A stretch of 64,000 nt of DNA, taken from positions 37,773,113-37,837,112 of the forward strand of contig NC_052508.1 in assembly GCF_014356525.2 (NCBI RefSeq), in the 5' to 3' direction. Source of the stretch: Nilaparvata lugens (taxonomy: Eukaryota; Arthropoda; Insecta; Hemiptera; Delphacidae). The number at the start of each line of letters is the position of its first letter. Position 1 is the first letter of the stretch. The notes under the pieces were generated by a model, which saw only the letters and a program-made list of their open reading frames with translations, had not been told where the DNA came from and made no database searches. The position numbers and the translations under genes were made by a program. Of the stretch, positions 8,852 to 43,931 are shown one piece after another.

Positions 8852-11304
8852 CAGGGTGATTCACGAGGATATGCGGTAACTTTGAGAGCTCATTCAATAT
8901 GTAAAAATAATGAAAAAAACTTATATAAACATAGGTCCGGAAATGTTTCGTTAGCGAGTTATACAGGGTTAAAGATTTCGCCTGGATTTCAGTTCCGCTG
9001 AGTAAATGAAGACTCTCTGAAATTCTGGGAAGTTAAATTTAGGGGCAAATGCCATTGTTTCTTATGGTTTTTTACCTGAAAAATTGATTAGAACAGGTCC
9101 CAGAACTGTAAGATGAGTAGTTTTTGAGTAATCCAGTGTAAAATGCAAAAACATTGAGTAAAAAACACAATTTTTACATTTGGCCAGCAATCGCTTTGTT
9201 ATTTTACCAATAAACTGATCAAATTTCAGAACAAAACTTGTAGAAAATTTAATTCTAAACAAAACGGTATGATTAAAGTATACAGAAAGTGAACAGATAA
9301 TCGATTAAAGGAAGTTTTATTGAAAACTGTAATGTAAAGTTATGCAATAAAATTACAGTAAATGCTCAAAAATGTTGCCATTAACTTCAATGCATCTTTC
9401 TGCTCGATTAAGAATTGCTCTTGTTGCTTTTCGTAGTTCTACGGGGCTCTCCTTTAACTGCACAAAGGCTTCATTAATTCGATCAAGTAACGCCTCACGG
9501 GAATTCACTTTGACCTCGTAAACATGATCTTTCATCCATCCCCATATGCAGAAGTCCAATGGCGTATGATCTGGTGACCTTGGTGGCCAGTGTATAGGAC
9601 CACCACGACCGATCCATTTATTTGGGAACTGATGATTTAGATAGGTGGAAACATCATTTGAAAAATGTGGCGGTGCGCCATCATGCTGGAAGTACATCTT
9701 GCGTCGCGTTGCAAGAGGAACATCTTCCAGCAATGTCGGTAATTCTTCTTGAAGAAACTGTAAGTACGCCTGACCTGTTAAGCGCTCTAGAAAAATAAAC
9801 GGTCCAATTAGCTTATCATCAATAACACCACACCATACATTAATGTTAAAAACGGTATTGAAAGTTACGTTCAATTGTTGCATGAGGGTTCTCTTCTGTC
9901 CATGAATGTTGGTTTCGTAAATTGTTGATACCATCACGAGTGAACTGTGACTCATCGGTAAATAAAATGTACTTGAAGAGTTGACGATGATTGACTAACC
10001 AATTGCAGTACTCCAATTGGATGTTCATTGTCTCCTGGTTGTAAATGCTGTACTTTTTGTTTATGGTAGGGATAAAGGTTGTTCTTATTAAGTGTTCTCC
10101 AAACTTTACTTTGCGAAACCCTAAACCGCTTTGAAATACGTCTTGTACTAATACCTGGACTACGTTCAACAGCAGCAATAATGTTTTCTTCTACATTAAC
10201 ATCATGTTGGTGAGGGCGGTCAGACTGGATCTTTACGCTTGGAAGTGATCCTGTTTCCCGTAACGTACGAAATGTAGAAATAATGGTTCTAGCATTTGGA
10301 ATTCTACGATAAGGGTAACGTTGTCTGTATTCTTCCACAGCGATTGTAGCATTGCCTTCACATACGCCGTAAATAAACACCATATCGGCGTATTCTTCAG
10401 TTGAAAATAAGTATGGCATTACTACTCCAACAATTTAATAATTACTATGGACAAAACAATGCTAACACGGACTGAAATTCAATACGACGAACAGAACAAT
10501 ACACACGTGGACTAAAACTCAGTTGTTACCTCTCAAGGAATTAAAATTCTACATTTCAAATCACATCATTGTTGATCAGCTGTTATTGTAGTGCCAACTT
10601 ATGAAAAACAAATTATCCGCTCAACATGTGTATTTTTTTTATTATTTATGTTTGTTGTTTATGTTTATTTCTTTATTTTAAAACTGTGTTTTAATATTAT
10701 TTTATTTTGAAATTTTAGTAAAAAAATTAAGGTGTTAAATTTAAGTAAAAATCATTAACTTTTTACAGATCTTTAATAAGAAATCAACAGAGTTATTGTC
10801 GGCCAAATGAAAAACGTGTGTTGTTCTGTTTTCAATAAAACTTCCTTTAATCGATTATCTGTTCACTTTCTGTATACTTTAATCATACCGTTTTGTTTAG
10901 AATAAAATTTTCTACAAGTTTTGTTCTGAAATTTGATCAGTTTATTGGTAAAATAACAAAGCGATTGCTGGCCAAATGTAAAAATTGTGTTTTTTTACTC
11001 AATGTTTTTGCATTTTACACTGGATTACTCAAAAACTACTTATCTTACAGTTCTGGGACCTGTTCTAATCAATTTTTCAGGTAAAAAACCATAAGAAACA
11101 ATGGCATTTGCCCCTAAATTTAACTTCCCAGAATTTCAGAGAGTCTTCATTTACTCAGCGGAACTGAAATCCAGGCGAAATCTTTAACCCTGTATAACTC
11201 GCTAACGAAACATTTCCGGACCTATGTTTATATAAGTTTTTTTCATTATTTTTACATATAGAATGAGCTCTCAAAGTTACCGCATATCCTCGTGAATCAC
11301 CCTG
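8852..11304 (-). mobile_element. DD41D Tc1/mariner-superfamily transposon with long TIRs
   Basis: This 2453-bp element has inverted termini starting CAGGGTGATTCACGAGGATA and is flanked by TA on both sides (8850-8851 and 11305-11306), the canonical Tc1/mariner duplication. The inverted repeats run about 475 bp (8852-9327 and 10830-11304) with only scattered differences, unusually long for the superfamily. A broken transposase lies between them on the minus strand. It sits in the intron 50 bp after the UBA2 exon A donor. Confidence 0.9.
9353..10419 (-). pseudogene. DD41D transposase, two frameshifts
   Basis: Read on the minus strand from 10419. The N-terminal helix-turn-helix region begins MPYLFSTEEYADMVFIYG, in the style of DUF4817 domains, followed by a second HTH with STRRISKRFRVSQSKVWRTL. 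The catalytic core shows FTDES (first Asp), HDGAPPH (second Asp) and PRSPDHTPLDF (third Asp). By my count 41 residues separate the second and third Asp, hence DD41D, the spacing described for rosa-type elements. Frame changes near 10025 and in a T-run near 9850 disable it. All three catalytic residues are otherwise retained, so the copy is recent. Confidence 0.85.
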
Positions 11305-12749: not shown

Positions 12750-15713
12750 CTAAGTCGTCAATCTTTGCATTCTATAATGCAAAAAGAATTCCTCACTGGA
12801 ATAAGGACAAACCTGCAACAACTCCTCCCTCACCTTAATTCTGAACTTTTCACCTGTAAGAGCTTTCATGTGTGTTGGCAATGAATTATAAAGCCGAATT
12901 CCTGCACTCTTTACCCCCCTCTCATACATACCAGTTCGATGAATGTCGTCTCTGAGGTTTTGTCTATTTCTGGTATTGTATGAGTGGAACAACTCTCCTG
13001 TATTAAACCTATCTTTATTCCTATCAATAAAACAAAGAGCCTCTAAAATATATACACCTGGTAGTGGGAGAATCTTTAACTCTTTGAAATAATCTCTACA
13101 ACTTGCTCTAATAGATTCACCCACCATCACTCTAACTGCCCACTTTTGAATCCTAAATATATGTATTGCATGAGTTGAATTGCCCCAAAGTATAACACCG
13201 TATGAAAGAAGAGAATGGAACACAGCAAAATAAACACTTCTAAGCGTTCCTGCATCCAGCAATTTCTTCACGGTTCTAAGAACAAATACTGCTGAGTTTA
13301 GTTTGCTTTTTAGCTGGTCTAAATGAGGTCGCCAGGAGAGTTCAGAGTCCAGCACTACTCCAAGTACCGTTGCCTCGTTTGCTGAACCTATGTTTCCATC
13401 TCTCGTATCCAATACTGCTTCCCGAGCCGTCCTGAATGGAATCTACTTAGTCTTATTGTAATTTAGTACCAACATATTTGAGGCCAGCCATTCTTTTAGT
13501 TTCTGAAGAGCTCTTCTACTTTCAGATTCCATATCATGCTGACTGTTACTTTTCAATAAAATACTTACATCATCAGCGTATAAAACACAGTGTGCTGGCT
13601 CAAGGTGTGGTGGCAAGTCGTTAATATATAGAAGGAAAAGCAAAGGACCAAGGACTGATCCCTGAGGGACCCCACTCCTCGCCTGTAACCATACCGACTG
13701 ATACACAAAAGAGTGAGACTGTATTTCCACCCGCTGATGTCTCTCATCAAAGTATGATACGAACCACTTGAGAACCTTGCCTTCAAAACCATATAATTTC
13801 ATCTTTTTCAATAAAATTTCAATGTTTACAAGATCGAAAGCTTTGGAAAGATCGGCAATCAGGCCACATACCCTGGATCTTCCATCCACAGAATTCAGCA
13901 CTTCATTTATAAAAGAAAAAAGCGCATCACCTGTAGAAGTGCCGGGCCTGAATCCAAACTGTTTAGGGGACAGCAGTTTTAACTTGTTCAAGTACTTTCT
14001 TAATCTGTGGAGCACTACGTATTCGAATATCTTTAGAAATACAAGTGGATTGGCAATCGGTCTGTGATTTTCAGGAAGCTTGTGGTTACCTTTCTTATAA
14101 ATGGGGACTACCTTAGAATATTTCAACTTTAACGGTACACAACCGGCTTTCATTGATTCGTTAAATATATAAGTCAGAGGTTCAATTATATGTTCGGCTG
14201 TTTGCTTTACTAGATAGTTTGAAATATTTTAATGATCATAGGATTTTTTATTTTTTAAAAATTTAATTATCTTTCTGAGTTCTGTTCTACTTATTGGATC
14301 AAATTCTTTCAAGTGGAAAGTGCGCGACTGTCGATGAACACTGCTAAAGAACTTTAAAAATTCATCTACGTCAGAATATTTACAGATACATTGTTGTATT
14401 TTCAGAGGAGTATTTATAAAATAATTATTTAGTAAATCTGCAGCTTCTTTGCCTCCTTTTATAATTCCAGTTTCATTGGCTATGTTTGTTTCTAATGTTT
14501 GAGCGGTACTCTTTCCTGTCTCAGTCTTAACTAGTTTCCATATTGCTCTTGTTTGATTTGAAGATTTTTTTATAAATGTACTAGCGGCAATTTTTTTGGC
14601 GGCATTCAGGACCTTTCTATAAGTATTTTTATAAATTCTAAAAAAGGATTCTAAGTTAAAGTATTTCATACCTGACGATGTAATTAAGTGAATCATAGTA
14701 CCTACCGATGATGGCATTTTCAATAACAAGCTCAGTGTCTTCAATCTGTCTCTAGATATCCTAATACCTTGAGTAATCCACGATAGCTTATCTATTTTTC
14801 CCCTGCCCACTGATCTTTCTGGAACATATTGATTACAGTGACCTATATAAGAGTTCATGAAGCTATTGAACATCGTATCGACATCTGTAGAATTGTAAAC
14901 AGAGCGCCAGCATTCATTTGAAAGCCCGTTTTTTAAAGCTGTTACATTTTTTTGATTAATTACTCTGTACTTTTTACTTTTCCCGAACGGTAAACATTTT
15001 TTCTCCTCAGAATTGGATTTTAATTTCTGTAATTTTAGTCTAGCACTACCACCATCGTGATCAGAAAAAGAGCAGGGAATAGTTCCGCCAGCAGAGAGAG
15101 CTGATGGATAGTTCGAAATAATGTAGTCAATTTCTGTGGCTGAATCTTTAGTCACTCTTGTTGGGCCCTTAGTTATTTTGTTTAAATTGAATGTTGTTAA
15201 TAGATCTTTGAACAAACTGCTGTTTCTATCATCCTTATTGTAATCTACATTTAAGTCACCGCATAAACATACTATTTCACCTTTCTCTTTTGTGACTTTC
15301 GGTAAAACAGATCTAAGTGATTCGATAAAAACTTCGAAATCCGAATTGGGAGCTCTATACAAACATAAGACTATTAATTTCTGTGGCATCTTTTTCAATC
15401 TCAATTCTATAGCGGATACTTCAAATACACTCTCAATAGCTAATGAGACTATGTCATTTCTGATATTACAATTGTTGATAGATCTGTCACGAACGAATAT
15501 ACAGGACCCACCTCTATTTTTTAGTTGTCTACTGAACTGTGATCTCAAACTAAAATCAGGAAGAGCAAAAACCTCTAATTCATTCTGTCGCAGCCAATGC
15601 TCAGTCAGACAAACAATATCGAAAGAAGTTCCCTCTTGTGACAATAGGATTTCGATGTCTAATTTAGAGTTCAGCAAGCCCTGGCAGTTAACGTGAAAAA
15701 CCTCACATCCTAT
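12750..15713 (-). pseudogene. LINE-C ORF2, endonuclease/reverse transcriptase with two in-frame stops
   Basis: Reading from 15713 downward the frame is open through HVNCQGL and FDIVCLTEHWL of the APE-type endonuclease, CGDLNVDYN and FSDHDGG (the catalytic His region). The RT follows, with [46 protein letters not shown] and YADD, then the C-terminal region with GVVLDSELSWRPHLDQL and SLLSYGVILWG. Stops at 14229-14231 and 13443-13445 fall within one unbroken frame, so these are point mutations. No ATG occurs upstream of the endonuclease. The natural entry seems to be -1 frameshifting from ORF1 at 15713-15719. Confidence 0.9.
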
Positions 15714-17045
15714 AAAAAATCATTAGTATTGGACAAAACTGAGATATTTGAGCACACCTGATTATCCATTGACACGCGCACCGCCCCACCACAAGACTCA
15801 CCTGCATTTCCTCTTCCTGTACTGAGTCGACTTTCATTCATAAGTTGTTCTTTCAAAAGTACCCTAAGTTTAAGTTTTCCTTTAATCTTATTCAGATGGA
15901 GTCCATGTCTTTTATAGTCAGCTATTTCAAAATTTCCCATATCCATGAGGTCGATTCCATCAAGCTGTGAGATCTGTCCGCTCAGCGTCAGTAGGCTGAG
16001 TTGTAGTGTCAACTATGTCGTTTGTTCCGGCTAGTACAATTACCCTATCGTCAAAATCGAAATCGGAAGTCAATTTTTCCAAGTCATGTGTTACTGCCCT
16101 GAAATCCCCTCCAGGTTTTGCCATTACCGTAGCTTCATAACCATCGTCGTGCACCATACGATTTAATTCCCATCCCAAATCCTTTCCGTGGCTGTCTGCT
16201 ACTACCAATACTCTCCTTCTCCTTTTTACCCTAGCTTTACTTGAAGGTTTCTTTGCATTTCTAGCTTGCTTATCATTATCTACATCGTTGTGCGCTGCAT
16301 CACAGTTATCTAAAACGCTAAAATAGTTATTTGTCATAGTAACGGGGTTTTGAGTTGTTACACGGTTGAAAACTGTATCGCCTGGAGAATAAAAATTTCT
16401 AAGATCACTCAATTCCATGTCAAGACTTTTATTTTCAGCTCTCAGTACTGAATTTTCGGCTTCCAGCACCTCAATACTTACTCTCATCTGTTCAATTATT
16501 GCTTCACTTTCCATCAATATCTTGTCCACGTCCATAGAGTGATCAATTACGTCATTCCATTGTTTTTTAAGTATTTCCATATTCTCAACCAGTTGATTAT
16601 TTTCTTTTTTAAGTGATTCTATGGTGTCGTTGCAATGTACATTTGATTGTTGAAAATCTGAATTCAAAGGAGACTTGGAAGAATGTGGTGTACTACTTGA
16701 GAAAATAGTGTGAATAGAGGATACGATGTCGGCTGTGTCGTTTAAAGAGGCGAGAGATTTATCTAGTACTGCCTGGTTATCAGGAATTGTCCTCGGTGAG
16801 CTGTTCAAAGTTAACGAATTATCCCCTCGTTCGCTGCTAGTTGAATTTGGCGGATGATTATGCTCATTAGTTGGATTGGACATAAGCAACAATTCATTAT
16901 CTGTTTTTATTGAAATGCTACAATCCTTTTTTAAACAGCGCCAGACTATGTGACCCAGTGATGTAATTCTAACCTTTCTGAATTTATAGTCATCATGTAT
17001 AACGGCCTCATTTCCCTTATTTGTTGTGGCTGCTTGCAATTTCAT
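15710..17045 (-). pseudogene. LINE-C ORF1, FLYWCH-like finger, coiled coil and SGNH esterase
   Basis: From ATG at 17045: a FLYWCH-like zinc finger (WRCLKKDC...NEHNHPP, residues about 36-65), a low-complexity linker, a coiled coil (about residues 135-215), a basic patch KRRRRVLVV, then an SGNH-hydrolase fold with VADSHGKDL (nucleophile Ser block) and LAGTNDI (block III). The first frame stops at 15960. The downstream part, with DYKRHGLHLNKIKGK (catalytic His block), is in another frame down to 15710. Too few residues lie between blocks III and V for the fold, so a deletion rather than a single-base slip is likely near 15980. Esterase ORF1 proteins are known in CR1-type LINEs. Confidence 0.8.
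15713..15719 (-). promoter_or_regulatory. Candidate -1 ribosomal frameshift site, LINE-C
   Basis: The minus strand reads GAT TTT TTA TAG at the end of ORF1, so T TTT TTA is in the zero frame and is directly followed by the stop codon. Slipping back one base gives ...TTT ATA GGA TGT GAG GTT, which leads without a stop into the endonuclease. T TTT TTA is the same heptamer used at the HIV-1 gag-pol junction (established). Use here is inferred from frame geometry and from the lack of an ORF2 ATG. Confidence 0.65.
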
Positions 17046-18542
17046 AATTGAATAATACTTTAGGCTTGCAATAATATAATACTATAATTATATAAATAGT
17101 TTTATATGAATAAGAATGATAAAAATGTTAGGATTTTATTCTTCTATTAATTTACTTTTGTTAGTTTATTTATTTAGAAAATTAGAAGGAATACTTTAAA
17201 TTTAAAAATCTATTCAGTTGATTTAAGTTTCAATTTAGAAAAGTGGAAATGGAATACTCTGTCGTAACAGTAACAATCACTAGGTAACGAGAAACAATGA
17301 CAAGGTACGATTCCACTAAAATATTTCTCTTCTATTTAATCATTATAAATTTATGGTACTATTAATTATTTGAATATTATAACTCTACTTATCAAATTAC
17401 TTGATAATAATTATTAAACTGCCGAAATAGTAAATTTGAGTGAGTTGATCTACAAAACTTCTAATATATTATTATTTAATATTATGATATGCTATATTCT
17501 TTTTAAACTTTGATCAATAATTCTTTATTCAATATTTTACCAGTCAGAAGATTTCTTCTCAAATAAAATTATATTTCAATTACTCTAGTCAGGCTCACTT
17601 TCAAACAGTGTATGAAAATCACAGCACATGTAGAGTCGCGCGTGCTCTGTCCACCAGCAGACCAAGCCCGACTAAACAAATCCAGAGCAGTTGTGCTGAG
17701 TTTACATTGAAATGCACCCAAGCACAATATTTGCAAGGACTACTGATAATCACAAAAAATAACAATTCGCCTCACAACCAAAAATGTACACAACCCAGTT
17801 GGTTGAAATAAGTTTATTTAATGAGTGAAAGCTGAAAATCAAGTGAGAAGAAAGTCTGACAAATTTGTAGTTTCACTCACGTGAAAAAGACTGAACTAGC
17901 AGAAAAACTAGAAAAACAGTCAAAACTATTGAAATAAATAATTAAAACGATTAAACATGAATTGAAATTAAAGTAGTATAATCACTCACTTATATTGTTT
18001 TGAATTATTATAGTCCTTGTTTTAGATAATAAACTTTTAAAAAAGAAGAGGAAAGATAGAAAAAGTAGAAACGAAGAACTTTGAGTAAAGACAAAAATTA
18101 TGAAGCTCAATTTAGTAAAAGGAAAATTTATGGAACGTTCTTTAAATACAATTATTACTTAATTTGGTTTTTATAATAGGAATGTAGTAAAGTATTAAAT
18201 TGTTTAGCAAAAGAAAAAAATTATGGAACGCACAGTGTTCTAGAATAAATTTGAAGTTACTGTACTTAATTTAAGTTATAATTGAAAAGCAAATAGAAAT
18301 GCAGCAAGAAGAAAGGGAATCGAGGAAAAGAAAAAAATGCTCTATTTGAGAGAACCTGTTATCTTTAGAGTTCGTACCAATATCAATCAGAACCAGTCGT
18401 TCAACGATTCTTATCAAGACGATAAAGGCACATCCGAAAAACAAACTAGTGATAAAGTAATAATATACTGTAAGGTAAATTTTAAAACTTCAACTGAGTT
18501 GTGGTCGATGTTGTAGTAGAAACGTTCCATGATGAAATAAAA
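17046..18542. other. UBA2 intron, no gene recognised
   Basis: Very AT-rich; short lysine-poor ORFs only. Part of 17046-17300 may be the LINE-C 5' leader. Nothing else can be supported. Confidence 0.4.
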
Positions 18543-19788: not shown

Positions 19789-20677
19789 GGACGGCAGCCA
19801 ACGGGCCGCTGTGCCCGGAGAGGATAGACGGTAAGGGACGGCAGCCAACGGGCCGCTGTGCCCTGGGAGGATGGATGGAAAGGGACGGCAGCCAACGGGC
19901 CGCTATGTCCTGGGAGGATGAGAGGAAAGGGACGGCAGCCAACGGGCCGCTATGCCCTGGGAGGATGAGAGGAAAGGGACGGCAGCCAACGGGCCGCTGT
20001 GCCCTGGGAGGATGAGAGGAAAGGGACGGCAGCCAACGGGCCGCTGTGCCCTGGGATGATAGTGGAAAGGGACGGCAGCCAACGGGCCGCTGTGCCCTGG
20101 GAGGATGGAGGAAAGGGACGGCAGCCAACGGGCCGCTGTGCCCTGGGAGGATGGGTGGAAAGGGACGGCAGCCAACGGGTCGCTGTGTCCTGGGAGGATG
20201 AGAGGAAAGGGACGGCAGCCAACGGGCCGCTGTGCTCTGGGAGGATGGATGGAAAGGGACGGCAGCCAACGGGCCGCTATGTCCTGGGAGGATGAGAGGA
20301 AAGGGACGGCAGCCAACGGGCCGCTGTGCCCTGGGAGGATGAGAGAAAGGGACGGCAGCCAACGGGCCGCTGTGCCCTGGGAGGATGAGAGGAAAGGGAC
20401 GGCAGCCAACGGGCCGCTGTGCCCTGGGAGGATGAGAGGAAAGGGACGGCAGCCAACGGGCCGCTGTGCCCTGGGATGATAGGTGGAAAGGGACGGCAGC
20501 CGACGGGCCGCTGTGTCCTGGGAGGATGAGAGGAAAGGGACGGCAGCCAACGGGCCGCTGTGCCCTGGGAGGATGGGTGGAAAGGGACGGCAGCCAACGG
20601 GTCGCTGTGTCCTGGGAGGATGAGAGGAAAGGGACGGCAGCCAACGGGCCGCTGTGCCCTGGGAGGATAGGCTGGAA
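19789..20677. repeat. 47-bp GC-rich minisatellite, 19 units
   Basis: Nineteen units of 46-47 bp begin at 19789, 19836, 19882, 19929 and so on to 20631. Each opens GGGACGGCAGCCAACGGGCC and continues GCTGTGCCCTGGGAGGAT plus a variable GAGAGGAAA or GGATGGAAA end. Several units share the same variants (GATGATAG, GGGTGG), pointing to block duplication. Because 47 is not a multiple of 3 and the unit has no stop, long spurious ORFs run through both strands; I do not call any of them a gene. Confidence 0.95.
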
Positions 20678-20766
20678 GGGACGCCTTAAAAGGCGTGAGC
20701 CATCCAGTCATCACCTTAAGAGGTGTACACCTCTGAGGCATCACCTTTAGAGGTGTATGCCACTCG

Positions 20767-21986
20767 CTATGAGCGTCATCTATACCTGTCCACAGGTACA
20801 TATTTACATCGTCCATCCGTTAATCGGACTTTTATGCGTGGCTTGCCGGCCCGTTTACGCTTACCAGGTGTCGAGACGCGTTGACACAAAACTGGATCCT
20901 TATTTCTTGAAGGACCTGGTGTGGGATCCTCTCAATGTGTGACAAACGCTTTGGCAATCAAAGGTGTTGTTGACACTTCCACATTCATGTAAGTCAATGG
21001 TGGCATTGATTCTTTCCTTACCACCTTCCTGTTTGTTGAGCGTGGTGGGATTGTGGAATTGTCTTTAGAGAATGATTTCCTACCTTGGGTTATCCTCTTT
21101 GTGTTGAGCGTGAGGTTAACATCTGACTCGACACGAGCTGGCATCCGCCTCACTGTGACCTCAACCGTCTCTTTGTCATTTAAGGGTGACTTTGATCCTT
21201 TCACTATCACCCTCTGTTTTATCATGCGACGCGGGGGTGTCAGTTGGTCTGTGGAGGGTGGTATCCTACTTCGGGTTAACCTCTCCATGTCGACTGCTTG
21301 GCTAGATTCTGACTTGCTATGAGATGGCATTCGTTCCATCCTAACTTCCACAAGGAAGTCTTTGCACTGACAGTTGGAGCATAAATCGCAGCGTGTCGTT
21401 CAGAGTTGGTCATTCCATCACAGTGATCAACTAAGTCATCCCAGGTTGCTTGTCTCGGAATATATGACAACTCTGCCTTTCTATCAATCAAGGCATTGGG
21501 TTCGACTCTGTTCAAACCAACCTGTTTGAACATCATTCTGTTGCGACTCTTGTTGTCCGGAGATATGGAATCTATGGCTGATATTGTTGGGACTGTTGTT
21601 GTCCTACTCCCCAATAAGATTGATCGCGACATAATTGGCTGACTTGAAGGATTCAATTGGGGAGGATCCCACTCTCTATCTCTCGTGAATGTGTGAATAG
21701 TCACTTTGTTTTCATGCATAAATTCCATGCCTAATAGCAACTCTTGTTCAAGTCCTTCCATTATAAACACAGTCAGTGGAATGGTGATTTGTTCTATAGT
21801 TACATTAGTTGTCACCTTCCCATTTAATGGGGTAGATCGTCCATCAGCTAATATCGCGTGGTGACATGCTGGTTCCTTCCTTATCATTCCTATTTTCCGG
21901 ATGACTTCATAGACCTCGTTACTCATATAATTAGCTTCAGCGCCAGTATCTAGCAACGCTTGGCACTTTCTACCACCGATTGTCAC
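20767..21986 (-). pseudogene. Retropepsin-like aspartic protease ORF with basic tail
   Basis: Minus-strand reading starts upstream of TVTIGGRKCQALLDTGAEAN, which carries the DTG catalytic triplet of retroviral-type proteases, and continues to the flap region and LLLGMEF, the second conserved block. After position 21276 the frame changes. A further stretch rich in Arg/Lys/Ser/Pro runs to 20932 and, past one TGA, to a basic end (DGRCKYVPVDRYR) near 20767. Such proteases process retroelement polyproteins as dimers. No RT follows, and the downstream sequence is the minisatellite. Possible origins are a decayed gag-protease element or a captured protease domain. Confidence 0.6.
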
Positions 21987-22666
21987 AGTAATAATAGTCG
22001 GTTGTCCCGTGATGTCTCTTTGATCACAGGAATCGTCTGTGTCTTTCGCACTACACCTGTCTTGTTTGATGTTTCATTGCCCTTTTGCATATTACAGTGG
22101 TTAATTGCAAGAAATTGTGAAATTTATACAGTTCGGACGGTTTTTCTTAGTGCAAAGTACCTGGTTTAACGAATTCCTGAACTGCATGACTGGTGAGTGT
22201 GGTACACGAGTGAGTTGCATGGACAGACCAAACACGATTTGAACTTTTCGACTCCATTTTTCGTAACCGGCATGCCCGTGATTTCACTTGTTATTGTTCT
22301 GATTACACTGAGAATCTGAGTGACTCTACTGCGACTTTATCGTGAACTGTACTGCTGTAGGAGTGACAGTGAAAGTGAAATTCTGATAACGCTGATAACT
22401 ACAACAAATTATTTTTACAACTGACTGTTATCTATGCGGCTGACTGTTGTGAAGATGTGAAGTGGCTTATCATCAGCTGATCTTTGTTTACCTGCAACCA
22501 TAGCAACAGATTCAGGAGAGGCATGACAACTGAGAGCGGTAACTTTGAACTTCTTTCGTTATAGATCTATCCATACTGTCCACCAAATAACAACTTAGTG
22601 CGGCAATTTTAGACTTCTTTTGGTATAGAACCCATAGACACTGTCAACCAATAAAATAATATTAGT

Positions 22667-24304
22667 ATGGCTAATCAGACTAATACATTTCAAACCTACA
22701 AAACTTCAAAGAATAATACGGGATTGTTTTATAAGAGTCACTGCTTTAGAAAGAGTCATACATTAGCAAGCGGTGACATTAGCTGGCGATGTTGCACCAC
22801 CGGCTGCTTGTCTTCAGTGATAACATCGGCGGCGATTGACTCGATTAAATATACTTCAGGAAATCATAAAAAGCATGCTGCACATCAGACACCGGCCGAG
22901 CTGTCTTATACAGTGAACGAAAAATGTCCAGTATCAAAATTGAAATCGTCACAACTTGGAAATAGAGCCTCACTTGATTCATTTCTGAATTCAGGTCGGA
23001 AAGCTTCACCTATCTGTTATGAAACGGGTTCTCAAACTGAAGACATTGTTTTACAATCTAAAGACGATCTAATCAAGAGAATATGTCAGTTAACTGAAAA
23101 TCAGTCTGCCCTAGTCAAAGAAATCCAACGATTGACTTTACAATTGGAAAAATATCAAGATAAGGATACTTTATGTAATGATCCAAAAAACATGAAAAGA
23201 TCAGATATTACAGTGAAGACTGACACTATAGATTTTCAAACAAAGGTGATGATTGATTTCTCCGCACAAACTAAAACAAAATTTACCTGTCCTGATTGTT
23301 CTGAGCGATTAGAAAAAGTAAGATTAATGGAACTTAATATTATGGAACTCAAACAACGACGCTGGGAAGATAGAATGACTTTTGAAGAGACATTACGAAA
23401 ACATGAAAACGTTAATAACACGGAAGAAAAATTAGGTAATGCTAAAAAGTTGAAAGGTATGAAGACTACGGATTACGGTGGTAGTGAGAGAATTAGTAAT
23501 GGGAGGAAACAATTGAGAAAGGAAAACTGGAAAACTCAAAGCACTCAATGCGAATCACGCAAGAAAAGAATCTTAATGTTTGCTGATGACACTGGCAGAT
23601 TAATCTGTCCAAAGCTACATAACATGACTGATTCGGATACAACAGTTTCCGGAAATGTATTCTCGGGAGCTGGATTGGACGTGATTTTGGGTGCGGTCAG
23701 ATCGAACACAGAGCACAGGAATTTTACAAAAAATGATGCAATTGTTTTGACAGGTGGCTCTAATGATGTTATGAGATACCGTAATATTAATAGACTTTTG
23801 AGAAGAATTGATGAGACAATTGAAACTCTAAGGCATACAAATGTTATAATGTGTACACTGCCCTACAGATACAATCAGTTGCCACAATCAACGTGTAATA
23901 GAATGATTACCAGATTCAATGAAGGAGTTAAAAATCTAACAGAGTATCATGGTACGTCGCTAATTGAACTCAATGACTTACAAACACAGGATCACACATC
24001 ACTCAATCAGCATCTGAATGGGAGAGGGAAGTTTCAGTTTTCCAAGAGGATAATGCAGCAATTCAGAGCTCTTACAGCGAAAATCTCATATTTACAGAAA
24101 GTCGAAGATTCCAATTTGATTGATCTCTCATTGTCAACGATATCCGATGAAGGTGACTCCATTCTGAACAACTCAGACATAACTTCTTTTGAACTGTCAA
24201 TACATAAGGACTCTTGCGCTGATGATAAACAAAGTGGAACAAATAAAAACTCTTCAACAAATTTTTTAGACCCAAGACAAATCAATCGTACTATGGATAC
24301 ATAG
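22667..24304 (+). CDS. LINE-E ORF1, FLYWCH-like finger, coiled coil and SGNH fold
   Basis: An intact 545-residue ORF from ATG. Residues about 25-75 form a FLYWCH-like finger (ISWRCCTTGC ... HKKHAAH). Residues about 130-170 and 220-260 are coiled coil with a CPDC pair. A basic linker follows. From about residue 300 comes an SGNH-hydrolase-like domain: block I reads FADDTGR, block III GGSNDV, and the His block NQHLNGRGK. The nucleophile Ser seen in LINE-C (ADSHG) is replaced by Asp here. ORF1 proteins bind their RNA in ribonucleoprotein particles; the esterase role is unknown. The -1 frame overlapping its end leads to ORF2. Confidence 0.88.
   Translation: MANQTNTFQTYKTSKNNTGLFYKSHCFRKSHTLASGDISWRCCTTGCLSSVITSAAIDSIKYTSGNHKKHAAHQTPAELSYTVNEKCPVSKLKSSQLGNRASLDSFLNSGRKASPICYETGSQTEDIVLQSKDDLIKRICQLTENQSALVKEIQRLTLQLEKYQDKDTLCNDPKNMKRSDITVKTDTIDFQTKVMIDFSAQTKTKFTCPDCSERLEKVRLMELNIMELKQRRWEDRMTFEETLRKHENVNNTEEKLGNAKKLKGMKTTDYGGSERISNGRKQLRKENWKTQSTQCESRKKRILMFADDTGRLICPKLHNMTDSDTTVSGNVFSGAGLDVILGAVRSNTEHRNFTKNDAIVLTGGSNDVMRYRNINRLLRRIDETIETLRHTNVIMCTLPYRYNQLPQSTCNRMITRFNEGVKNLTEYHGTSLIELNDLQTQDHTSLNQHLNGRGKFQFSKRIMQQFRALTAKISYLQKVEDSNLIDLSLSTISDEGDSILNNSDITSFELSIHKDSCADDKQSGTNKNSSTNFLDPRQINRTMDT
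24262..24268 (+). promoter_or_regulatory. Candidate -1 ribosomal frameshift site, LINE-E
   Basis: In the ORF1 frame the codons are aca aat ttt tta gac, giving T TTT TTA in the zero frame, 12 sense codons before the ORF1 stop at 24302. The -1 frame (aga ccc aag aca ...) is open from here into the endonuclease, and no ATG is available before that domain. The upstream overlapping A AAT TTT also fits the X XXY YYZ rule. No convincing downstream stem or pseudoknot was seen by eye. Confidence 0.65.
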
Positions 24305-25921
24305 ATAAAGTAAATGGGAACAAAGAACATGACTTAAACGATGATGCTTTCTCAGAATGGTACAATGTTAACTCAGATCGATCTGACCTATTGCCGAATA
24401 CGCCACCTGTAGATGCAGGCGGGTTGACGACGAGAATATTCTTTGTAAACGTATGTTCATTGAGGTCAAAAATTAGTCAACTAGAAGAGTTGTCTAAAGA
24501 TACATCCTTCGATATTGTGTGCTTAAACGAGCATTGGTTGGTTGGTGATGAAGTGTCTTTCTATGTGCCAAATGGCTTTGTACTAGCAGCCTCATATTGC
24601 AGAGAGCCTCCTCTCACTCGAGGTGGCTCATCGATTTTAATTAAGAGAGAATTATCTTTCACCCTTGTTGACGTGTCACAGTTTTGTTTACCAACGCTAT
24701 TTGAAGTATCAGCAATAAAGATAGTTAAATCGAATATCATAGTAGTGAGCATGTATAGAACACCAGACTCCAATCTCAGAGACTTTCTCAATAGATTAGA
24801 AGATTTTTTAACATTCGTGACTTCGAAATCCTATAGATCTATACTGCTAGCAGGCGACTTCAATATAGACATTCTCAAGGAAGATAACTCTGAAGTTCAA
24901 ATGTTTCAAAACATAATGAGATCATTCAATCTTTACAAATCTCATTCATGTCCAACGAGGAAAAAGGCCTGCCTTGACAACTTTTTCACAGATTTGAGAT
25001 CAAATTGCTATAATTGTTTCATTTACAAACAAGACTTGATTTCGGATCATGCTGGATTATTGCTTGAGTTTGGAATGCCATTGAGTGAATTGACTGAAAT
25101 CGCAATGTTTTGAATCAAAAGAAACCATCAGTAAGAAAATTTCGGCTACTGAGACAGGAAAACCTGGATAAATTGAATGAGTCACTACTAAATTATGATT
25201 GGTCAGAAATTTATTCTACATATGATGTAAATAGAATGACGTCCATGTTTTCAAATGCTATTGTGTATTTTCTCAATCTACACTGTCCTTTAATCAAGCC
25301 TAGATCTACAAAAATGAAAAATAAGAAGTGGTACACAACGGAATTGACAACAATGAAACAACATCTTATGATTTTGTATAGTATATGGAAAGCCACAGGA
25401 GGAGATGTGGAGAAAAATAACTTTACAGAATACAAGAAAAAGTATAGAAAGGCATTGACACTAGCACAAGTTGCCGCAAATAATAAATTGATTTTGGAGT
25501 CAAAAAACAAATCCAAAACTGCATGGAAAATAATAAATTCTATTAAGGACACTACAACACCTGTACTAACTGATGTGAAGATTTCACCGGACGAATTCAA
25601 CGATTTCTTTGTAGACGTTCCTGATAATGTCGTTGGCCATCAGCAGAGCTGTCAAAACCCACTTACCTATTCAGATTTTCTAAGAACCAACACAGGTATA
25701 CGAAGGAATGACAACGAAACAGCATGTAAGTTTTCCTGGATTAATGTAGACACTAATATAATAATGAAAATTGTAAAAAAATGAGCTCATCACGTAGTGA
25801 AGATGTCTTTGGAATTTCAAATTTCTTACTAAAGAACATCATTGATTCAATCAATATTCCATTGGTATTCATAATAAATTCTATTTTTAAATCTGGTGTT
25901 TTCCCCGACTGTTTGAAACAA
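24269..25921 (+). pseudogene. LINE-E copy 1 ORF2, broken
   Basis: In the -1 frame relative to ORF1. Endonuclease motifs: FVNVCSLRSKISQLEEL, LNEHWL, MYRTPDSN, GDFNIDIL, DLISDHAGLLLEF. One base is missing near 25100 (GAAATCGC against GAAAATCGC in copy 2) and another near 25780 in an A-run, and the element ends before the RT motifs. It is inactive on its own; copy 2 holds the complete ORF2. Confidence 0.85.
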
Positions 25922-26498
25922 TTTTACAGTGGTTAATTGCAAGAAATTGTGAAATTTATACAGTTCGGACGGTTTTTCTTAGTGCAAAGTACCTGGTTTA
26001 ACGAATTCCTGAACTGCATGACTGGTGAGTGTGGTACACGAGTGAGTTGCATGGACAGACCAAACACGATTTGAACTTTTCGACTCCATTTTTCGTAACC
26101 GGCATGCCCGTGATTTCACTTGTTATTGTTCTGATTACACTGAGAATCTGAGTGACTCTACTGCGACTTTATCGTGAACTGTACTGCTGTAGGAGTGACA
26201 GTGAAAGTGAAATTCTGATAACGCTGATAACTACAACAAACTATTTTTACAACTGACTGTTATCTATGCGGCTGACTGTTGTGAAGATGTGAAGTGGCTT
26301 ATCATCAGCTGATCTTTGTTTACCTGCAACCATAGCAACAGATTCAGGAGAGGCATGACAACTGAGAGCGGTAACTTTGAACTTCTTTCGTTATAGATCT
26401 ATCCATACTGTCCACCAAATAACAACTTAGTGCGGCAATTTTAGACTTCTTTTGGTATAGAACCCATAGACACTGTCAACCAATAAAATAATATTAGT

Positions 26499-27191
26499 AT
26501 GGCTAATCAGACTAATACATTTCAAACCTACAAAACTTCAAAGAATAATACGGGATTGTTTTATAAGAGTCACTGCTTTAGAAAGAGTCATACATTAGCA
26601 AGCGGTGACATTAGCTGGCGATGTTGCACCACCGGCTGCTTGTCTTCAGTGATAACATCGGCGGCGATTGACTCGATTAAATATACTTCAGGAAATCATA
26701 AAAAGCATGCTGCACATCAGACACCGGCCGAGCTGTCTTATACAGTGAACGAAAAATGTCCAGTATCAAAATTGAAATCGTCACAACTTGGAAATAGAGC
26801 CTCACTTGATTCATTTCTGAATTCAGGTCGGAAAGCTTCACCTATCTGTTATGAAACGGGTTCTCAAACTGAAGACATTGTTTTACAATCTAAAGACGAT
26901 CTAATCAAGAGAATATGTCAGTTAACTGAAAATCAGTCTGCCCTAGTCGAAGAAATCCAACGATTGACTTTACAATTGGAAAAATATCAAGATAAGGATA
27001 CTTTATGTAATGATCCAAAAAACATGAAAAGATCAGATATTACAGTGAAGACTGACACTATAGATTTTCAAACAAAGGTGATGATTGATTTCTCCGCACA
27101 AACTAAAACAAAATTTACCTGTCCTGATTGTTCTGAGCGATTAGAAAAAGTAAGATTAATGGAACTTAATATTATGGAACTCAAACGATGA
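26499..27191 (+). pseudogene. LINE-E copy 2 ORF1, truncated
   Basis: Identical to the first about 229 residues of copy 1 ORF1 apart from a Lys to Glu change (AGAAATCC against the copy 1 AAGAAATCC). It keeps the FLYWCH-like finger and the CPDC pair. The internal deletion then brings a TGA at 27189-27191. Confidence 0.9.
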
Positions 27192-30111
27192 TGCTTTCTC
27201 AGAATGGTACAATGTTAACTCAGATCGATCTGACCTATTGCCGAATACGCCACCTGTAGATGCAGGCGGGTTGACGACGAGAATATTCTTTGTAAACGTA
27301 TGTTCATTGAGGTCAAAAATTAGTCAACTAGAAGAGTTGTCTAAAGATACATCCTTCGATATTGTGTGCTTAAACGAGCATTGGTTGGTTGGTGATGAAG
27401 TGTCTTTCTATGTGCCAAATGGCTTTGTACTAGCAGCCTCATATTGCAGAGAGCCTCCTCTCACTCGAGGTGGCTCATCGATTTTAATTAAGAGAGAATT
27501 ATCTTTCACCCTTGTTGACGTGTCACAGTTTTGTTTACCAACGCTATTTGAAGTATCAGCAATAAAGATAGTTAAATCGAATATCATAGTAGTGAGCATG
27601 TATAGAACACCAGACTCCAATCTCAGAGACTTTCTCAATAGATTAGAAGATTTTTTAACATTCGTGACTTCGAAATCCTATAGATCTATACTGCTAGCAG
27701 GCGACTTCAATATAGACATTCTCAAGGAAGATAACTCTGAAGTTCAAATGTTTCAAAACATAATGAGATCATTCAATCTTTACAAATCTCATTCATGTCC
27801 AACGAGGAAAAAGGCCTGCCTTGACAACTTTTTCACAGATTTGAGATCAAATTGCTATAATTGTTTCATTTACAAACAAGACTTGATTTCGGATCATGCT
27901 GGATTATTGCTTGAGTTTGGAATGCCATTGAGTGAATTGACTGAAAATCGCAATGTTTTGAATCAAAAGAAACCATCAGTAAGAAAATTTCGGCTACTGA
28001 GACAGGAAAACCTGGATAAATTGAATGAGTCACTACTAAATTATGATTGGTCAGAAATTTATTCTACATATGATGTAAATAGAATGACGTCCATGTTTTC
28101 AAATGCTATTGTGTATTTTCTCAATCTACACTGTCCTTTAATCAAGCCTAGATCTACAAAAATGAAAAATAAGAAGTGGTACACAACGGAATTGACAACA
28201 ATGAAACAACATCTTATGATTTTGTATAGTATATGGAAAGCCACAGGAGGAGATGTGGAGAAAAATAACTTTACAGAATACAAGAAAAAGTATAGAAAGG
28301 CATTGACACTAGCACAAGTTGCCGCAAATAATAAATTGATTTTGGAGTCAAAAAACAAATGCAAAACTGCATGGAAAATAATAAATTCTATTAAGGACAC
28401 TACAACACCTGTACTAACTGATGTGAAGATTTCACCGGACGAATTCAACGATTTCTTTGTAGACGTTCCTGATAATGTCGTTGGCCATCAGCAGAGCTGT
28501 CAAAACCCACTTACCTATTCAGATTTTCTAAGAACCAACACAGGTATACGAAGGAATGACAACGAAACAGCATGTAAGTTTTCCTGGATTAATGTAGACA
28601 CTAATATAATAATGAAAATTGTAAAAAAAATGAGCTCATCACGTAGTGAAGATGTCTTTGGAATTTCAAATTTCTTACTAAAGAACATCATTGATTCAAT
28701 CAATATTCCATTGGTATTCATAATAAATTCTATTTTTAAATCTGGTGTTTTCCCCGACTGTTTGAAACAATCAGTAGTCAACCCCATTCACAAAAAGGGT
28801 GATAAGAACCAACCTGAAAATTTCAGACCTGTTGCGATAGGACCAATTATCAGTAAAGTGATTGAAACTTGTTTATTAATACCACTTACTGAACATTTCA
28901 CTACTAATAAATTGCTCAATAATAATCAATTTGGCTTTCGAAACAAATGCTCCACTACTATGGCTTTAGAGAAAATTGTGGAGTTTATACTTGAGGGATT
29001 TGAGAGAGGTTCAGTTATTGGTGGTGGCCTGCTGGATCTGAGCAAGGCTTTCGACACTGTGTCACACTCAATTCTATGCAAGAAACTTGAATATTATGGA
29101 ATTGAGGGCTCTGAATTGAACTTGATCAAATGCTACTTGAAAGATAGAATTCAAATAGTCAGAGTCGATAATAATTATTCAGCTCCTAGATTCACAAAAG
29201 CAGGCGTTCCGCAAGGATCTGTACTGGGCCCGTTTTTGTTCATTGTCTATATCAATGACTACAGTGTGAATGTCCCATCTTATTCAGTATTATATGCTGA
29301 CGATACCACCGTTCTGAGCATTGATAAGAATGAGAACGTTGTTTTAAGTCAACTCAACAATGCTTTAGAGAGTTCAAAGCGATGGTACACAGCCAATCAC
29401 TTGGCATTGAATGAGAGAAAATGTGAAAATATAATATTCTCATTGAGAAATACATCTAGTGAACGGTATGAGAATTATATGAACCCTGTGAAATTGTTAG
29501 GAGTCATGTTAGACAGTAAGCTGTGCTGGACCAATCAAATTGATTTCCTTTGTAAAAAACTATCCCGCAGCTTATACGCTCTGAAGAGACTGAGGCTTTG
29601 TGTCAGTAAAGAAGTGCTGATATCAGCCTATTACGGTTTATTTCATTCTCACTTGAGCTATGGACTTCGCCTATGGGGGAACTGCAGTGGTATGAAGAGG
29701 GTTTTTGTATGGCAGAAAAAGGCAATTAGATGCATCGTTGGTCTGAGGAATGATGAATCATGCAGACAAGCCTTCCCAGATCTTCAGATAATGACACTGT
29801 CATGCATGTACATATTTTGTAATCTGATGCACATGAGAAAAAATGAAACCAACTTCATACGACAAGAGGAGATTCACAGCTACGCAACAAGACAGCGTTC
29901 GTTCCTGACAACACCTCATATCCGTCTCAACAAGACCTTCATGAGTCACAAGTTCCAGCAGTTTCGAATCTTCAATAAGATGCCCCAGAGAATTAGACAA
30001 CTACCGGAACCAAGATATAAGGCAGTTATTTGCAAGTGGCTGAAAGAAAAAGCATTTTATGATTTAAATGAATATATGAACTGCACTGACATGCCTAGTG
30101 ACAATCAATGA
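27181..30111 (+). CDS. LINE-E ORF2, endonuclease/reverse transcriptase, intact
   Basis: An uninterrupted frame of over 950 codons with no ATG before the endonuclease; the first plausible non-ATG codon is TTG at 27238. Domains: APE-type endonuclease (LNEHWL, GDFNIDIL, SDHAG; about residues 15-230), linker, then RT with [67 protein letters not shown] and catalytic YADD, and a C-terminal region with GVMLDSKLCWTNQIDFL and YGLRLWGN. The usual length for this class is about 900-1000 residues. It nicks chromosomal DNA and copies the element RNA there. In this copy its natural ORF1-linked entry has been deleted, so translation is doubtful. Confidence 0.9.
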   Translation, partial: SNDDAFSEWYNVNSDRSDLLPNTPPVDAGGLTTRIFFVNVCSLRSKISQLEELSKDTSFDIVCLNEHWLVGDEVSFYVPNGFVLAASYCREPPLTRGGSSILIKRELSFTLVDVSQFCLPTLFEVSAIKIVKSNIIVVSMYRTPDSNLRDFLNRLEDFLTFVTSKSYRSILLAGDFNIDILKEDNSEVQMFQNIMRSFNLYKSHSCPTRKKACLDNFFTDLRSNCYNCFIYKQDLISDHAGLLLEFGMPLSELTENRNVLNQKKPSVRKFRLLRQENLDKLNESLLNYDWSEIYSTYDVNRMTSMFSNAIVYFLNLHCPLIKPRSTKMKNKKWYTTELTTMKQHLMILYSIWKATGGDVEKNNFTEYKKKYRKALTLAQVAANNKLILESKNKCKTAWKIINSIKDTTTPVLTDVKISPDEFNDFFVDVPDNVVGHQQSCQNPLTYSDFLRTNTGIRRNDNETACKFSWINVDTNIIMKIVKKMSSSRSEDVFGISNFLLKNIIDSINIPLVFIINSIFKSGVFPDCLKQSVVNPIHKKGDKNQPENFRPVAIGPIISKVIETCLLIPLTEHFTTNKLLNNNQFGFRNKCSTTMALEKIVEFILEGFERGSVIGGGLLDLSKAFDTVSHSILCKKLEYYGIEGSELNLIKCYLKDRIQIVRVDNNYSAPRFTKAGVPQGSVLGPFLFIVYINDYSVNVPSYSVLYADDTTVLSIDKNENVVLSQLNNALESSKRWYTANHLALNERKCENIIFSLRNTSSERYENYMNPVKLLGVMLDSKLCWTNQIDFLCKKLSRSLYALKRLRLCVSKEVLISAYYGLFHSHLSYGLRLWGNCSGMKRVFVWQKKAIRCIVGLRNDESCRQAFPDLQIMTLSCMYIFCNLMHMRKNETNFIRQEEIHSYATRQRSFLTTPHIRLNKTFMSHKFQQFRIFNKMPQRIRQLPEPRYKAVICKWLKEKAFYDLNEYMNCTDMPSDNQ

Positions 30112-30482: not shown

Positions 30483-31096
30483 CCCAGGTGTTGCTCCTGG
30501 ACGACTTAGCTCAGTCGTAATGTGGGCGGGGAAAGGAGGCAAGTCGAAGTTCTTCTTCTTCCTTCTTTGTGCCTTAGGAGTGAACAGCACCTCCTGGTGC
30601 TGTCCACGGCGTGAAGGTCGCTCTCTAGTCTGATGACACCAATACGAGGTAATTTTGTATTAGCCCTACGGCCTCGATTCCGCTCCGTAGGAAGAGGAAG
30701 GATAGACGGGAGGGACGGCAGCCAACGGGCCGCTGTGCCCAGAGAGGATAGACGGTAAGGGACGGCAGCCAACGGGCCACTGTGCCCTGGGAGGATGAGA
30801 GGAAAGGGACGGCAGCCAACGGGCCACTATGCCCTGGGAGGATGAGAGGAAAGGGACGGCAGCCAACGGGCCGCTGTGCCCTGGGAGGATGGATGGATAG
30901 GGACGGCAGCCAACGGGCCGCTGTGCCCTGGGAGAATAGGTGGAAAGGGACGGCAGCCAACGGGCCGCTGTGCCCTGGGAGGATGGATGGATAGGGACGG
31001 CAGCCAAAGGGCCGCTGTACCAGGAGAGGAGGACAGGGACGTACGGCAGCCAACGGGCCGCTTCACAAGGAGGAAGAAGGTTGGGAGCGGAATGCT
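30483..31096. mobile_element. Minisatellite-bearing element, copy 2
   Basis: Shares with copy 1 the flank from CCCAGGTGTTGCTCCTGG through CTCTCTAGTCTGATGACACC and GGTAATTTTGTATT, then the 47-bp minisatellite. On the minus strand both copies keep an equivalent frame with KAQRRKKKNFDLPPFPAHIT despite a 3-bp length difference, which hints at past coding. A MITE is inserted at the right side. Confidence 0.55.
30712..31062. repeat. 47-bp minisatellite, seven to eight units
   Basis: Units begin at 30712, 30759, 30806, 30853, 30900, 30947 and 30994, with a degenerate eighth at about 31034. The sequence family is the same as the 19-unit array at 19789, so this array is much shorter. Confidence 0.93.
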
Positions 31097-41290: not shown

Positions 41291-41307
41291 GAAAAAGTTG
41301 AAAAATC

Positions 41308-43931
41308 CAAGTGGAAGAAGTTTTAAAATTTATCACTGAAAAACCCTACTCTTCTATTGGAATCACTGGAGATTTCAATATAAACATACTTGATGATCAT
41401 AGACCGGAGGTCCTCCAATTCATGGATGTAATGAGATCCTTCAATTTATATAATGTACACTCCCTTCCTACAAGGGGAAGAGCAAGCCTGGACAATGTGT
41501 TTACATGTATTAAACCTGAGTTTACTGAATATGAATTGTATGAACAGGACCTTATATCTGACCATGCAGGTATTTTTGTTAATTTTTCAATAGGAGTTAC
41601 CAATAGTACAAAGAATGACAAGGAAACAGAATTCCGCAAAAAGCGTCTTATCTCAGATGTTAGACTAAATAATTATAATAGGTGTCTATCTAATTACGAC
41701 TGGTCGAATATTTTCAATGTCTGTGATACAAATACTGTGATAATTACGTTTATAAATGTTTTAACGTTTTACCTGAATGTTCATTGTCCTCTAATTGACT
41801 ATAAACTTAGGCCCAAATCTAGTCAAAAAAATTGGTTCACGCCTGAACTGAAGCTAATGAGGGAACGTCTAATGATGTATTATAGTATCTGGAAGATAAG
41901 CAATACTGGGAATGCAAAGGCTGACTTCAAAAACTATAAGAAGCTGTACAATACAGCTATAGATCAAACAAAAATTGCAGCAAATGATAACATTATCAGC
42001 TAATAGATGTAAACCAGCCTGGAGAATTGTTAAAAAAGAGACAGGGCAAAACATGGCGCATCCAAAAGTTAATCTCTCACCTGAAACGCTGAATGATTAC
42101 TTTATTGATGTCCCAAATAATGCAGCCAAAAAGCAGAACTCCTCTCCACTCACCTATTCTGATTTTTTTTTAAATTATAAATTTACTGAGGGTATTAATA
42201 GACAAATGCTTAACTTTTCATGGAAAGTGGTAGATCCAGATACTATTAGATCGATTGTAAGTAGTTTAAGTGCATCAAAAAGTGAAGATTGTTTTGGTAT
42301 GTCCAATTTTTTGCTAAAAAATATTATTGAATCTATATTGGCCCCTTAACAGTGATAATAAATTTAGTTTTGCTTACTGGAAAATTTCCCGATTGCTTAA
42401 AGCTCTCATTACTCAGTCCGATTTTCAAAAAAGGTGATCTTTCATAAGTGATTTTTCAATAGGTGATCTATTATATTACCTGAAAACTACAGGCCAATAG
42501 CAATTGTTACAATAATTAGCAAGATAATAGAGACTTGTATTTTTCATCAATTGTATGACTATTTCACAATCAACAAACTGTTAAATATATGTCAACCAAT
42601 TTGGGTTCAGGCCTAACTGTTCAACCACAATGGCGGTTGAAAAAATAGTAAATTACATCCTTGATGGTTTTGAGAAGAGGATGGTTGTAGGAGGTAAAAT
42701 GTTGGACCTGAGTAAAGCGTTTGATGTTGTTTCACATGACATTCTTTGCAGAAAGCTTGAACACTATGGAATCAGAAACAGTGAACTAGAATTAATAGAA
42801 AGGTACCTTAGAGATAGATACCAAATTGTTTAAGCTCAATAATAATTGTAAATCCAAACCAAAGAAAGTATTGGCTGGAGTACCTCAAGGTTCGGTCCTT
42901 GGGCCCTTTTTATTCTTAGTTTTTATAAATGATTTTAATGTAAATGTACCCAGCTTTTCTGTGCTTTAAGCTGATGACACTACCATTTTGGATTCAAATG
43001 TAAATGTAGATAGTGTGTTAGACAGCCTTGTTTTGTCAATGGACCGTAGTAAAGAGTGGTACGGATAAAATTGCCTGACACTTAATGAGGGTAAAACAGA
43101 GAATATAATTTTCACTCTTCGTAATAATTCAAATATTGAACACCAGCCGTTACCTAAAGCCAGTGAAATTATTAGGAATCATGCTGGACAGTAAGCTGAC
43201 CTGGACTAGTCATGTAGAATATTTATGTAAAAAGTTGGCCAGAGTCATGTTTCTTTTAAGGAAATTGAAATGTAACGTTAGTAAGGAAGTCTTGATTCTT
43301 ACCTATTATGGTCTTTTTCACTCTCAACTTAATTATGGACTTCGACTGTGGGGTAATAGTAGTGAGATGAAAAAAGTATTCGTATGGCAGAAAAAAGCTA
43401 TTCGTTGCATAGTTGGCCTGAAGAGTGATGAAACTTGTAAAAATAGCTTTATTGAACTGGATATTATGATATTCATCTCTTCCATCTATGTACATTTACT
43501 GTAACCTAATTTATGTTAAAAAAATATAAATGATTTCAAACAACACTATCATCAGCATGCACATCTAACTAGACACAGGGATAACATAGTTACGCCATAT
43601 ATTAGACTAAGCAAATCATTAAAAAGCCATAGGTATCAGCAATATTTATTGTTTAACAAATTGTCGCGCACAATCAGGATCCTGCCAACAAAAAAAATTA
43701 TCCCAGCAATATCCTATTGGCTGAAGCCAATACTTTTATTGCTTTTTACTCTACTGAAGAGTATCTTAATCTTACTGACATGAATAACTGGACTGGTAAT
43801 TGATTTGTAATCTTAATTTTTGTAATATGTTTGACTGGGTCGCGTGTTGCGCCCTCACAAAGTGACAAAGCCTATTGTATAATATTATGTACTTATTGGT
43901 CAATAAAGATTCTTATTCTTATTCTTATTCA
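41308..43931 (+). mobile_element. LINE-H, 5'-truncated relative of LINE-E
   Basis: Starts inside the endonuclease domain (5' truncation), continues through RT and ends in a TTCTTA tail at about 43912-43931, the same tail type as LINE-E. It was inserted into the DD41D-type terminal repeat relic. Confidence 0.85.
41311..43504 (+). pseudogene. LINE-H endonuclease/reverse transcriptase pseudogene
   Basis: Pieces in order: endonuclease with GDFNINILDD and DLISDHAG (41311-42003); linker (41975-42349); RT start with MLDLSKAFDVVSHDILC (42630-42833); [20 protein letters not shown] (about 42880-42940); the catalytic box reading L-stop-ADD because the Tyr codon has become TAA at about 42967; and the C-terminal region with GIMLDSKLTWTSHVEYL and YGLRLWGN (43136-43504). 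At least five frame changes. It is close to LINE-E in sequence but much older. Confidence 0.85.

Follow-up and report, generated by a model that had tools for sequence, protein, structure and literature searches.

LINE-E, a non-LTR element of Nilaparvata lugens, and at least 2 other LINE families probably express their second open reading frame (ORF2) by programmed -1 frameshifting at the slippery heptamer U UUU UUA, as judged from sequence comparison. Most ribosomes would complete ORF1 and terminate within 0 to 11 codons of the heptamer, and a minority would slip back 1 base into ORF2 while the heptamer is occupied by tRNA-Phe and tRNA-Leu. The product would be an ORF1-EN-RT fusion (EN, endonuclease; RT, reverse transcriptase) made at low frequency, with a high ratio of ORF1 to ORF2 as the outcome. 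The slippage itself, its rate, and the role of the fusion as the working enzyme are points that we infer. Frameshifting is the simplest explanation because the same heptamer lies at the same place and in the same phase in families with diverged proteins, and because no start codon precedes EN in LINE-E and in the second family, M.

To our knowledge, translation of the second ORF of non-LTR elements has been worked out in a few cases only. If our reading is true, this LINE lineage would set its ORF1:ORF2 ratio as retroviruses set Gag:Gag-Pol, EN-RT would be physically joined to the ORF1 protein, and the heptamer could serve as a motif for annotating other LINEs in which ORF2 has no start codon.

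LINE-E and its ORF1/ORF2 junction

The window (the whole stretch of 64,000 nucleotides analyzed) contains 2 copies of LINE-E arranged head-to-tail on the plus strand (22089-30111), with nearly identical 5' parts. Copy 1 (22089..25930, ends approximate), delimited from the direct repeats D3, D4, D2, and D5 together with the sequence, is 3'-truncated, and its 3' cut adjoins the 5' end of copy 2 (25921..30111, given to the end of ORF2). Copy 2 has lost 985 bp across the ORF1/ORF2 junction (repeat offsets of 3832 vs. 2847), and the long open EN-RT frame at 27160-30111 belongs to this copy, without the junction. Copy 1 has the junction, yet its ORF2, counted from 24247, breaks off after 288 codons. 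One 47-bp tandem repeat occurs on both sides (20500-20730 and 30628-31093) of the LINE-E pair and of a putative retropepsin-like ORF on the minus strand (21276-22073).

LINE-E ORF1 (22667..24304, plus strand; 22655-24304 from stop to stop, with the ATG at 22667) encodes a FLYWCH zinc finger and an SGNH/GDSL hydrolase-like domain, with a stretch between them that by eye resembles a coiled coil. Neither of the Pfam matches, to Lipase_GDSL_2 (E = 7e-7) and to FLYWCH (E = 4e-4), reached the cut-off set by Pfam. An SGNH protein of Laodelphax striatellus was 61% identical to ORF1 over 32% of the query, and ORF1 had no match among PDB sequences. Where the catalytic serine of an SGNH hydrolase would be expected, LINE-E by eye reads ADDTGR vs. 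ADSHGK in M and EDSIIK in the third family, c68; for this reason, catalysis by the esterase of LINE-E may be altered.

The original prediction placed the heptamer in the ORF1 zero frame 12 codons before the stop and took the -1 frame to be open from there into the endonuclease, and both points were confirmed. The heptamer T TTT TTA (24262..24268, plus strand) is in ORF1 phase and is followed by 11 sense codons and, as the 12th codon, the stop TAG (24302..24304, plus strand); a further heptamer, A AAT TTT, overlaps it in the same phase, starting 3 nt upstream. The -1 frame opens 5 codons before the heptamer (24247) and stays open to 25113; read from the heptamer (24262..25113, plus strand), it encodes a Met-free leader of about 60 residues and then EN, matched by Exo_endo_phos (Pfam, E = 2e-7) from residue 68 of the copy 1 frame. 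The first EN motif (VNVCSL) starts at residue 62 after the heptamer, and the first Met is residue 164.

The window is AT-rich, and TTTTTTA is about as frequent in it as expected (64 matches vs. 63.6); it is the place and phase of the LINE-E heptamer that are unusual, not its presence. In codon shuffles, an in-phase TTTTTTA arose in the LINE-E overlap with P = 0.0031-0.0036; because any of 24 canonical heptamers arose there with P of about 0.09, the case from LINE-E taken by itself is only suggestive.

We compared the LINE-E junction (501-nt query) with the window's own genome (1.085 Gb, 6870 contigs; counts are lower bounds) and identified at least 13 matches, 11 of which span the full query, the window copy included. 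The conservation across copies to which the original prediction had looked held in large part, with the exact TTTTTTA kept in 9 of the 11 copies and the -1 phase in 10. The exceptions are L017 (T TTT TTC), L009 (T TTT TCA), and L016, in which a 1-base insertion next to the heptamer accounts for the single copy without the -1 phase. In 10 of 11 copies, the -1 frame could be followed as far as the EN motif without meeting a Met; in the eleventh, L012, it stops after 8 residues. Five of the 11 copies (the window copy, L009, L010, L011, and L013) had an ORF1 open as far as its start, and ORF2 was open for more than 1000 codons in 2, L009 (1003) and L010 (1005), with the first Met inside EN in both. 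The long open ORF2 in the window, on which the original claim drew, is that of copy 2 with its deleted junction; the claim of an intact ORF2 without an ATG before EN holds in L009 and L010. Because these copies, with both ORFs open, share the overlapping, ATG-less layout, this layout characterizes fully open copies and is not an artefact of damaged ones.

L010 combines both open ORFs with the exact heptamer. L009 also has both ORFs open but carries T TTT TCA, which counts against the frameshift reading; this change may be recent, as it is the sole difference from the window copy in the 501 nt. The LINE-E copies are about 95-100% alike, so heptamer conservation among them is weak evidence and does not prove selection. 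Scans of viral_contigs for DNA of relatives outside this genome returned none, and 2 contigs from a genome_contigs scan (L020 and L021) were LINE-like but of other types and uninformative here.

Families M and c68

We surveyed the window plus 200 kb to its right (264 kb) with EN and ORF1 queries, comprising 4 from the window and 12 of 102 ORF2 relatives, and obtained 14 clusters. The ORF1/ORF2 junction was readable in 6 of them (LINE-E, M, c68, c65, c251, and the element at 578-4941), and T TTT TTA was present in the full 0 to -1 arrangement at 3 of these 6, namely LINE-E, M, and c68. In these 3 families, an SGNH domain was identified by Pfam in LINE-E and c68 (below the gathering score) and by eye in M.

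M lies on the minus strand of the window, spanning 17081 to 12750. The 5' part of its ORF1 (15960..17081) encodes FLYWCH, a coiled coil, and an SGNH-like region seen by eye only; Pfam matched FLYWCH (E = 2e-5) and coiled-coil families, with no GDSL match at E<=0.01. The tail of ORF1 runs on in another frame in the window copy, as seen in a three-frame reading. At the junction, AAT GAT TTT TTA TAG, the heptamer (15713..15719, minus strand) is in the phase of the ORF1 tail, and the stop TAG (15712-15710) follows directly. The ORF2 frame has TAA TGA just 5' of the heptamer and then runs open as TTT TTT ATA GGA, so that its EN part (14229..15719, minus strand) opens exactly at the heptamer; it continues in the same frame, with in-frame stops, through RT and the C-terminal part (12750..14228, minus strand; Pfam RVT_1, E = 9e-32). 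EN starts within about 11 residues of the heptamer, and the first Met is residue 111, with none before EN. The ORF overlap is only 10 nt, and TTTTTTA arose there with P = 0.0002 in codon shuffles. M is known from 1 damaged copy (a frame change upstream in ORF1 and stops in ORF2), and our statement on its heptamer therefore rests on the local junction. The EN of M is 34% identical to that of LINE-E, and the make-up of ORF1 is similar.

In c68, the heptamer T TTT TTA (L022:4534, minus strand) is in ORF1 phase and is followed by 7 sense codons and TGA. ORF1 (L022:4507-5892, minus strand) is open over 462 codons and contains an SGNH domain (Lipase_GDSL_2, E = 1e-6, below the gathering score); no FLYWCH was identified by Pfam at E<=0.05, and the FLYWCH parts of the LINE-E and M ORF1s match c68 ORF1 by tblastn. 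The ORF2 frame opens 2 codons before the heptamer, and TTTTTTA arose in the overlap with P = 0.0013 in codon shuffles. An ORF2 ATG (L022:4504-4506, minus strand) overlaps the ORF1 stop as ATGA, so frameshifting is not required in c68, which could use frameshifting, reinitiation, or both.

The 3 remaining readable junctions differ. In the decayed element c65 (L022:1254, plus strand), T TTT TTA is correctly phased for ORF2 and EN is reached without a Met, but the ORF1-like tail just before the heptamer reads in another frame; with ORF1 phase lost in this copy, c65 was not counted as support. The SGNH ORF1 of c65 (match to P0001) starts close to the right-hand edge of the window, at 63861-64000, and runs into L022. 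In c251 (L040:8020, minus strand), T TTA AAC is in phase and no Met precedes EN; any canonical heptamer arose in its 103-nt overlap with P of about 0.23, and no SGNH domain was identified in its ORF1 by Pfam, and for these reasons c251 was kept out of the main claim. Heptamers other than T TTT TTA, such as that of c251, may take its place in other families. In the element at 578-4941 of the window, ORF1 is decayed and ORF2 carries an ATG of its own.

LINE-E, M, and c68 thus share the heptamer, the 0 to -1 phase, and the position at the junction, with a pairwise EN identity of 27-34%. What varies is the opening of the ORF2 frame, at the heptamer in M, 2 codons before it in c68, and 5 codons before it in LINE-E, and the number of sense codons from the heptamer to the ORF1 stop (0, 7, and 11, respectively). 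In all 3, an X XXY YYZ site sits in the zero frame within the overlap of the ORFs, and none of the overlaps contains another in-phase canonical heptamer except the overlapping A AAT TTT of LINE-E. The -1 frame is open into a functional domain, EN, in LINE-E and M, as well as in the long frames of L009 and L010, and heptamer and phase are conserved both among copies, apart from L009, L016, and L017, and across the 3 families. These likenesses support, as a conclusion from comparison, the proposal that ORF2 is made as a -1 frameshift fusion with ORF1.

The original prediction had also pointed to the RNA downstream of the heptamer, where folds were not consistently better than shuffles. For pseudoknot-free folds of 72-119 nt downstream, z-scores were -0.7, -0.1, and -1.9 in LINE-E, +0.7, -0.2, and +0.6 in M, -0.8 in c68, -2.2 in c65, and +0.4 in c251, with no consistent signal of a stimulatory structure and no common fold among these 5 elements. 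The ORF2 starts of the 102 protein relatives, the nearest named of which come from a planthopper (Nilaparvata) and a leafhopper (Graphocephala), were dropped as evidence; because these starts were set by gene callers and the first EN motif was recognized by motif search in only 52 of 102, we draw no conclusion on ORF2 starts from them.

Alternative explanations and known systems

Termination-reinitiation at a codon overlapping the ORF1 stop, with the heptamers incidental, is the rival that fits c68 best, and a passage of PMC5902531, citing Kojima 2005, gives UAAUG termination-reinitiation as the non-LTR mechanism. The SART1-type overlap of ORF1 and ORF2 at the stop described there has its like in c68, whose first ORF2 Met overlaps the ORF1 stop. 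LINE-E and M, which also have an ORF2-frame codon overlapping the stop, differ from SART1 in that this codon is ATA; with no ATG before EN in either, an AUA start would be needed, and AUA is a poor start codon. Reinitiation moreover leaves unexplained why an in-phase heptamer stands 0, 7, or 11 codons from the stop in 3 families, and we consider it unlikely.

Joining of the 2 frames in the mRNA, by splicing or by RNA polymerase slippage on the T6 run, would agree with a Nilaparvata lugens gene model, P0005, in which an SGNH-like piece (by eye) precedes EN in 1 protein, as a spliced model would have it. Splicing, however, does not need the exact phase of T TTT TTA relative to ORF1, and a run of 6 T is short for polymerase slippage; we hold this explanation to be very unlikely. 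Less probable still is a separate start for ORF2, at a non-AUG codon or at an internal (IRES-like) site. The near-cognate codons in the LINE-E leader (e.g., AAG, ATA, and TTG) and the separate translation of ORF2 in other LINEs favor this explanation, but it sits poorly with M: there ORF2 is closed up to the heptamer, EN follows after only about 10 residues, and ATA is the sole obvious near-cognate codon. Coincidence, with AT-rich sequence and decayed copies placing a T run at the junction, could appeal to the chance frequency of TTTTTTA in the window, to the P of about 0.09 for any canonical heptamer in the LINE-E overlap, and to c65 with its ORF1 phase not kept; it is the least probable of the explanations weighed, given that the exact heptamer recurs in the same phase in 3 diverged families (shuffle P = 0.0036, 0.0002, and 0.0013).

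The proposed -1 frameshifting has counterparts in several known systems. Retroviral gag-pol -1 frameshift sites include the U UUU UUA type. LINE-E shares with retroviral gag-pol and animal LTR elements the heptamer class and the 0 to -1 phase into an RT-bearing frame, and it differs from gag-pol in being of the EN-RT non-LTR kind, in that Pfam identified no protease or integrase in the ORFs scanned, and in that no clear downstream stimulator was found. Among animal LTR elements, pol is in the -1 frame in 28 of 51, according to a section of PMC5009743. The original prediction had called the strategy one not commonly described for non-LTR elements, which was too strong. Frameshifting in such elements is not unprecedented, because a -1 frameshift is stated to be needed for ORF2 of Dictyostelium TRE5-A and TRE3-A in a passage of PMC5911963, and the text portion of PMC5009743 on HeT-A, a Drosophila telomeric non-LTR element, says that its gag requires frameshifting. 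TRE5-A and TRE3-A resemble LINE-E as non-LTR elements whose ORF2 combines an APE-type EN with RT (PMC5911963, same passage), and they differ as amoeba elements with different ORFs, compared here without their slip sites. HeT-A offers an insect non-LTR element with frameshifting (PMC5009743, same portion), which, unlike that proposed for LINE-E, serves a Gag-like ORF.

HeT-A has no reverse transcriptase of its own. With esterase-type (type IV) CR1/L2 LINEs, LINE-E shares an SGNH/esterase-like ORF1 and an EN-RT ORF2; the SGNH domain of that type was matched in LINE-E (7e-7) and c68 (1e-6), each below the gathering score, and in M by eye only, and LINE-E and M depart from that type in carrying an N-terminal FLYWCH finger on ORF1. 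In the part of PMC4120745 on its Jockey-superfamily set, esterase ORF1s occur only in vertebrate groups, whereas the host of LINE-E is an insect; the same part cites esterase ORF1s in diverse phyla for other clades. The word "frameshift" is absent from a 2010 review of non-LTR retrotransposons (PMC2881922) and from a paper on the esterase (PMC3905857), and the passages on frameshifting in PMC4700185 and PMC7175516 concern LTR elements. We found no description of a conserved slippery heptamer at an insect LINE ORF1/ORF2 junction in our searches of open-access papers, which does not prove absence, and our literature search returned no paper combining FLYWCH, non-LTR, and ORF1.

On balance, we lean slightly toward a broader scenario, in which an insect LINE group with an esterase-type ORF1 would have given up independent initiation of ORF2, a single ancient and selected U UUU UUA frameshift would yield the ORF1-EN-RT fusion, and relatives such as c251 would use other heptamers, T TTA AAC among them.

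Other elements in the survey area

The remaining 8 of the 14 clusters include LINE-E copy 2, with its deleted junction, and the ORF1 part of c68. Two partial EN matches were identified at joined coordinates 121500 and 172591, and no matching ORF1 was found upstream of the clusters in L027, L030, and L039 (joined coordinates 117547, 150396, and 241621, respectively). The cluster at 41305 is 5'-truncated and lies in a decayed LINE related to LINE-E (41302-43900 of the window), the EN part of which is 65% identical to P0005.

A 600-codon open frame encoding a virus-type superfamily 1 RNA helicase (L027:4235-6037, minus strand; Viral_helicase1, Pfam, E = 3e-32) ends just upstream of the LINE EN frame at joined coordinate 117547, on the same strand. 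This frame is either an endogenous RNA-virus-like stretch or a LINE-carried helicase, of which a case is described for TRAS elements in PMC5563155. Further, 2 overlapping frames on the minus strand of the window (9353-10434) have, by eye, the look of a broken mariner-type transposase.
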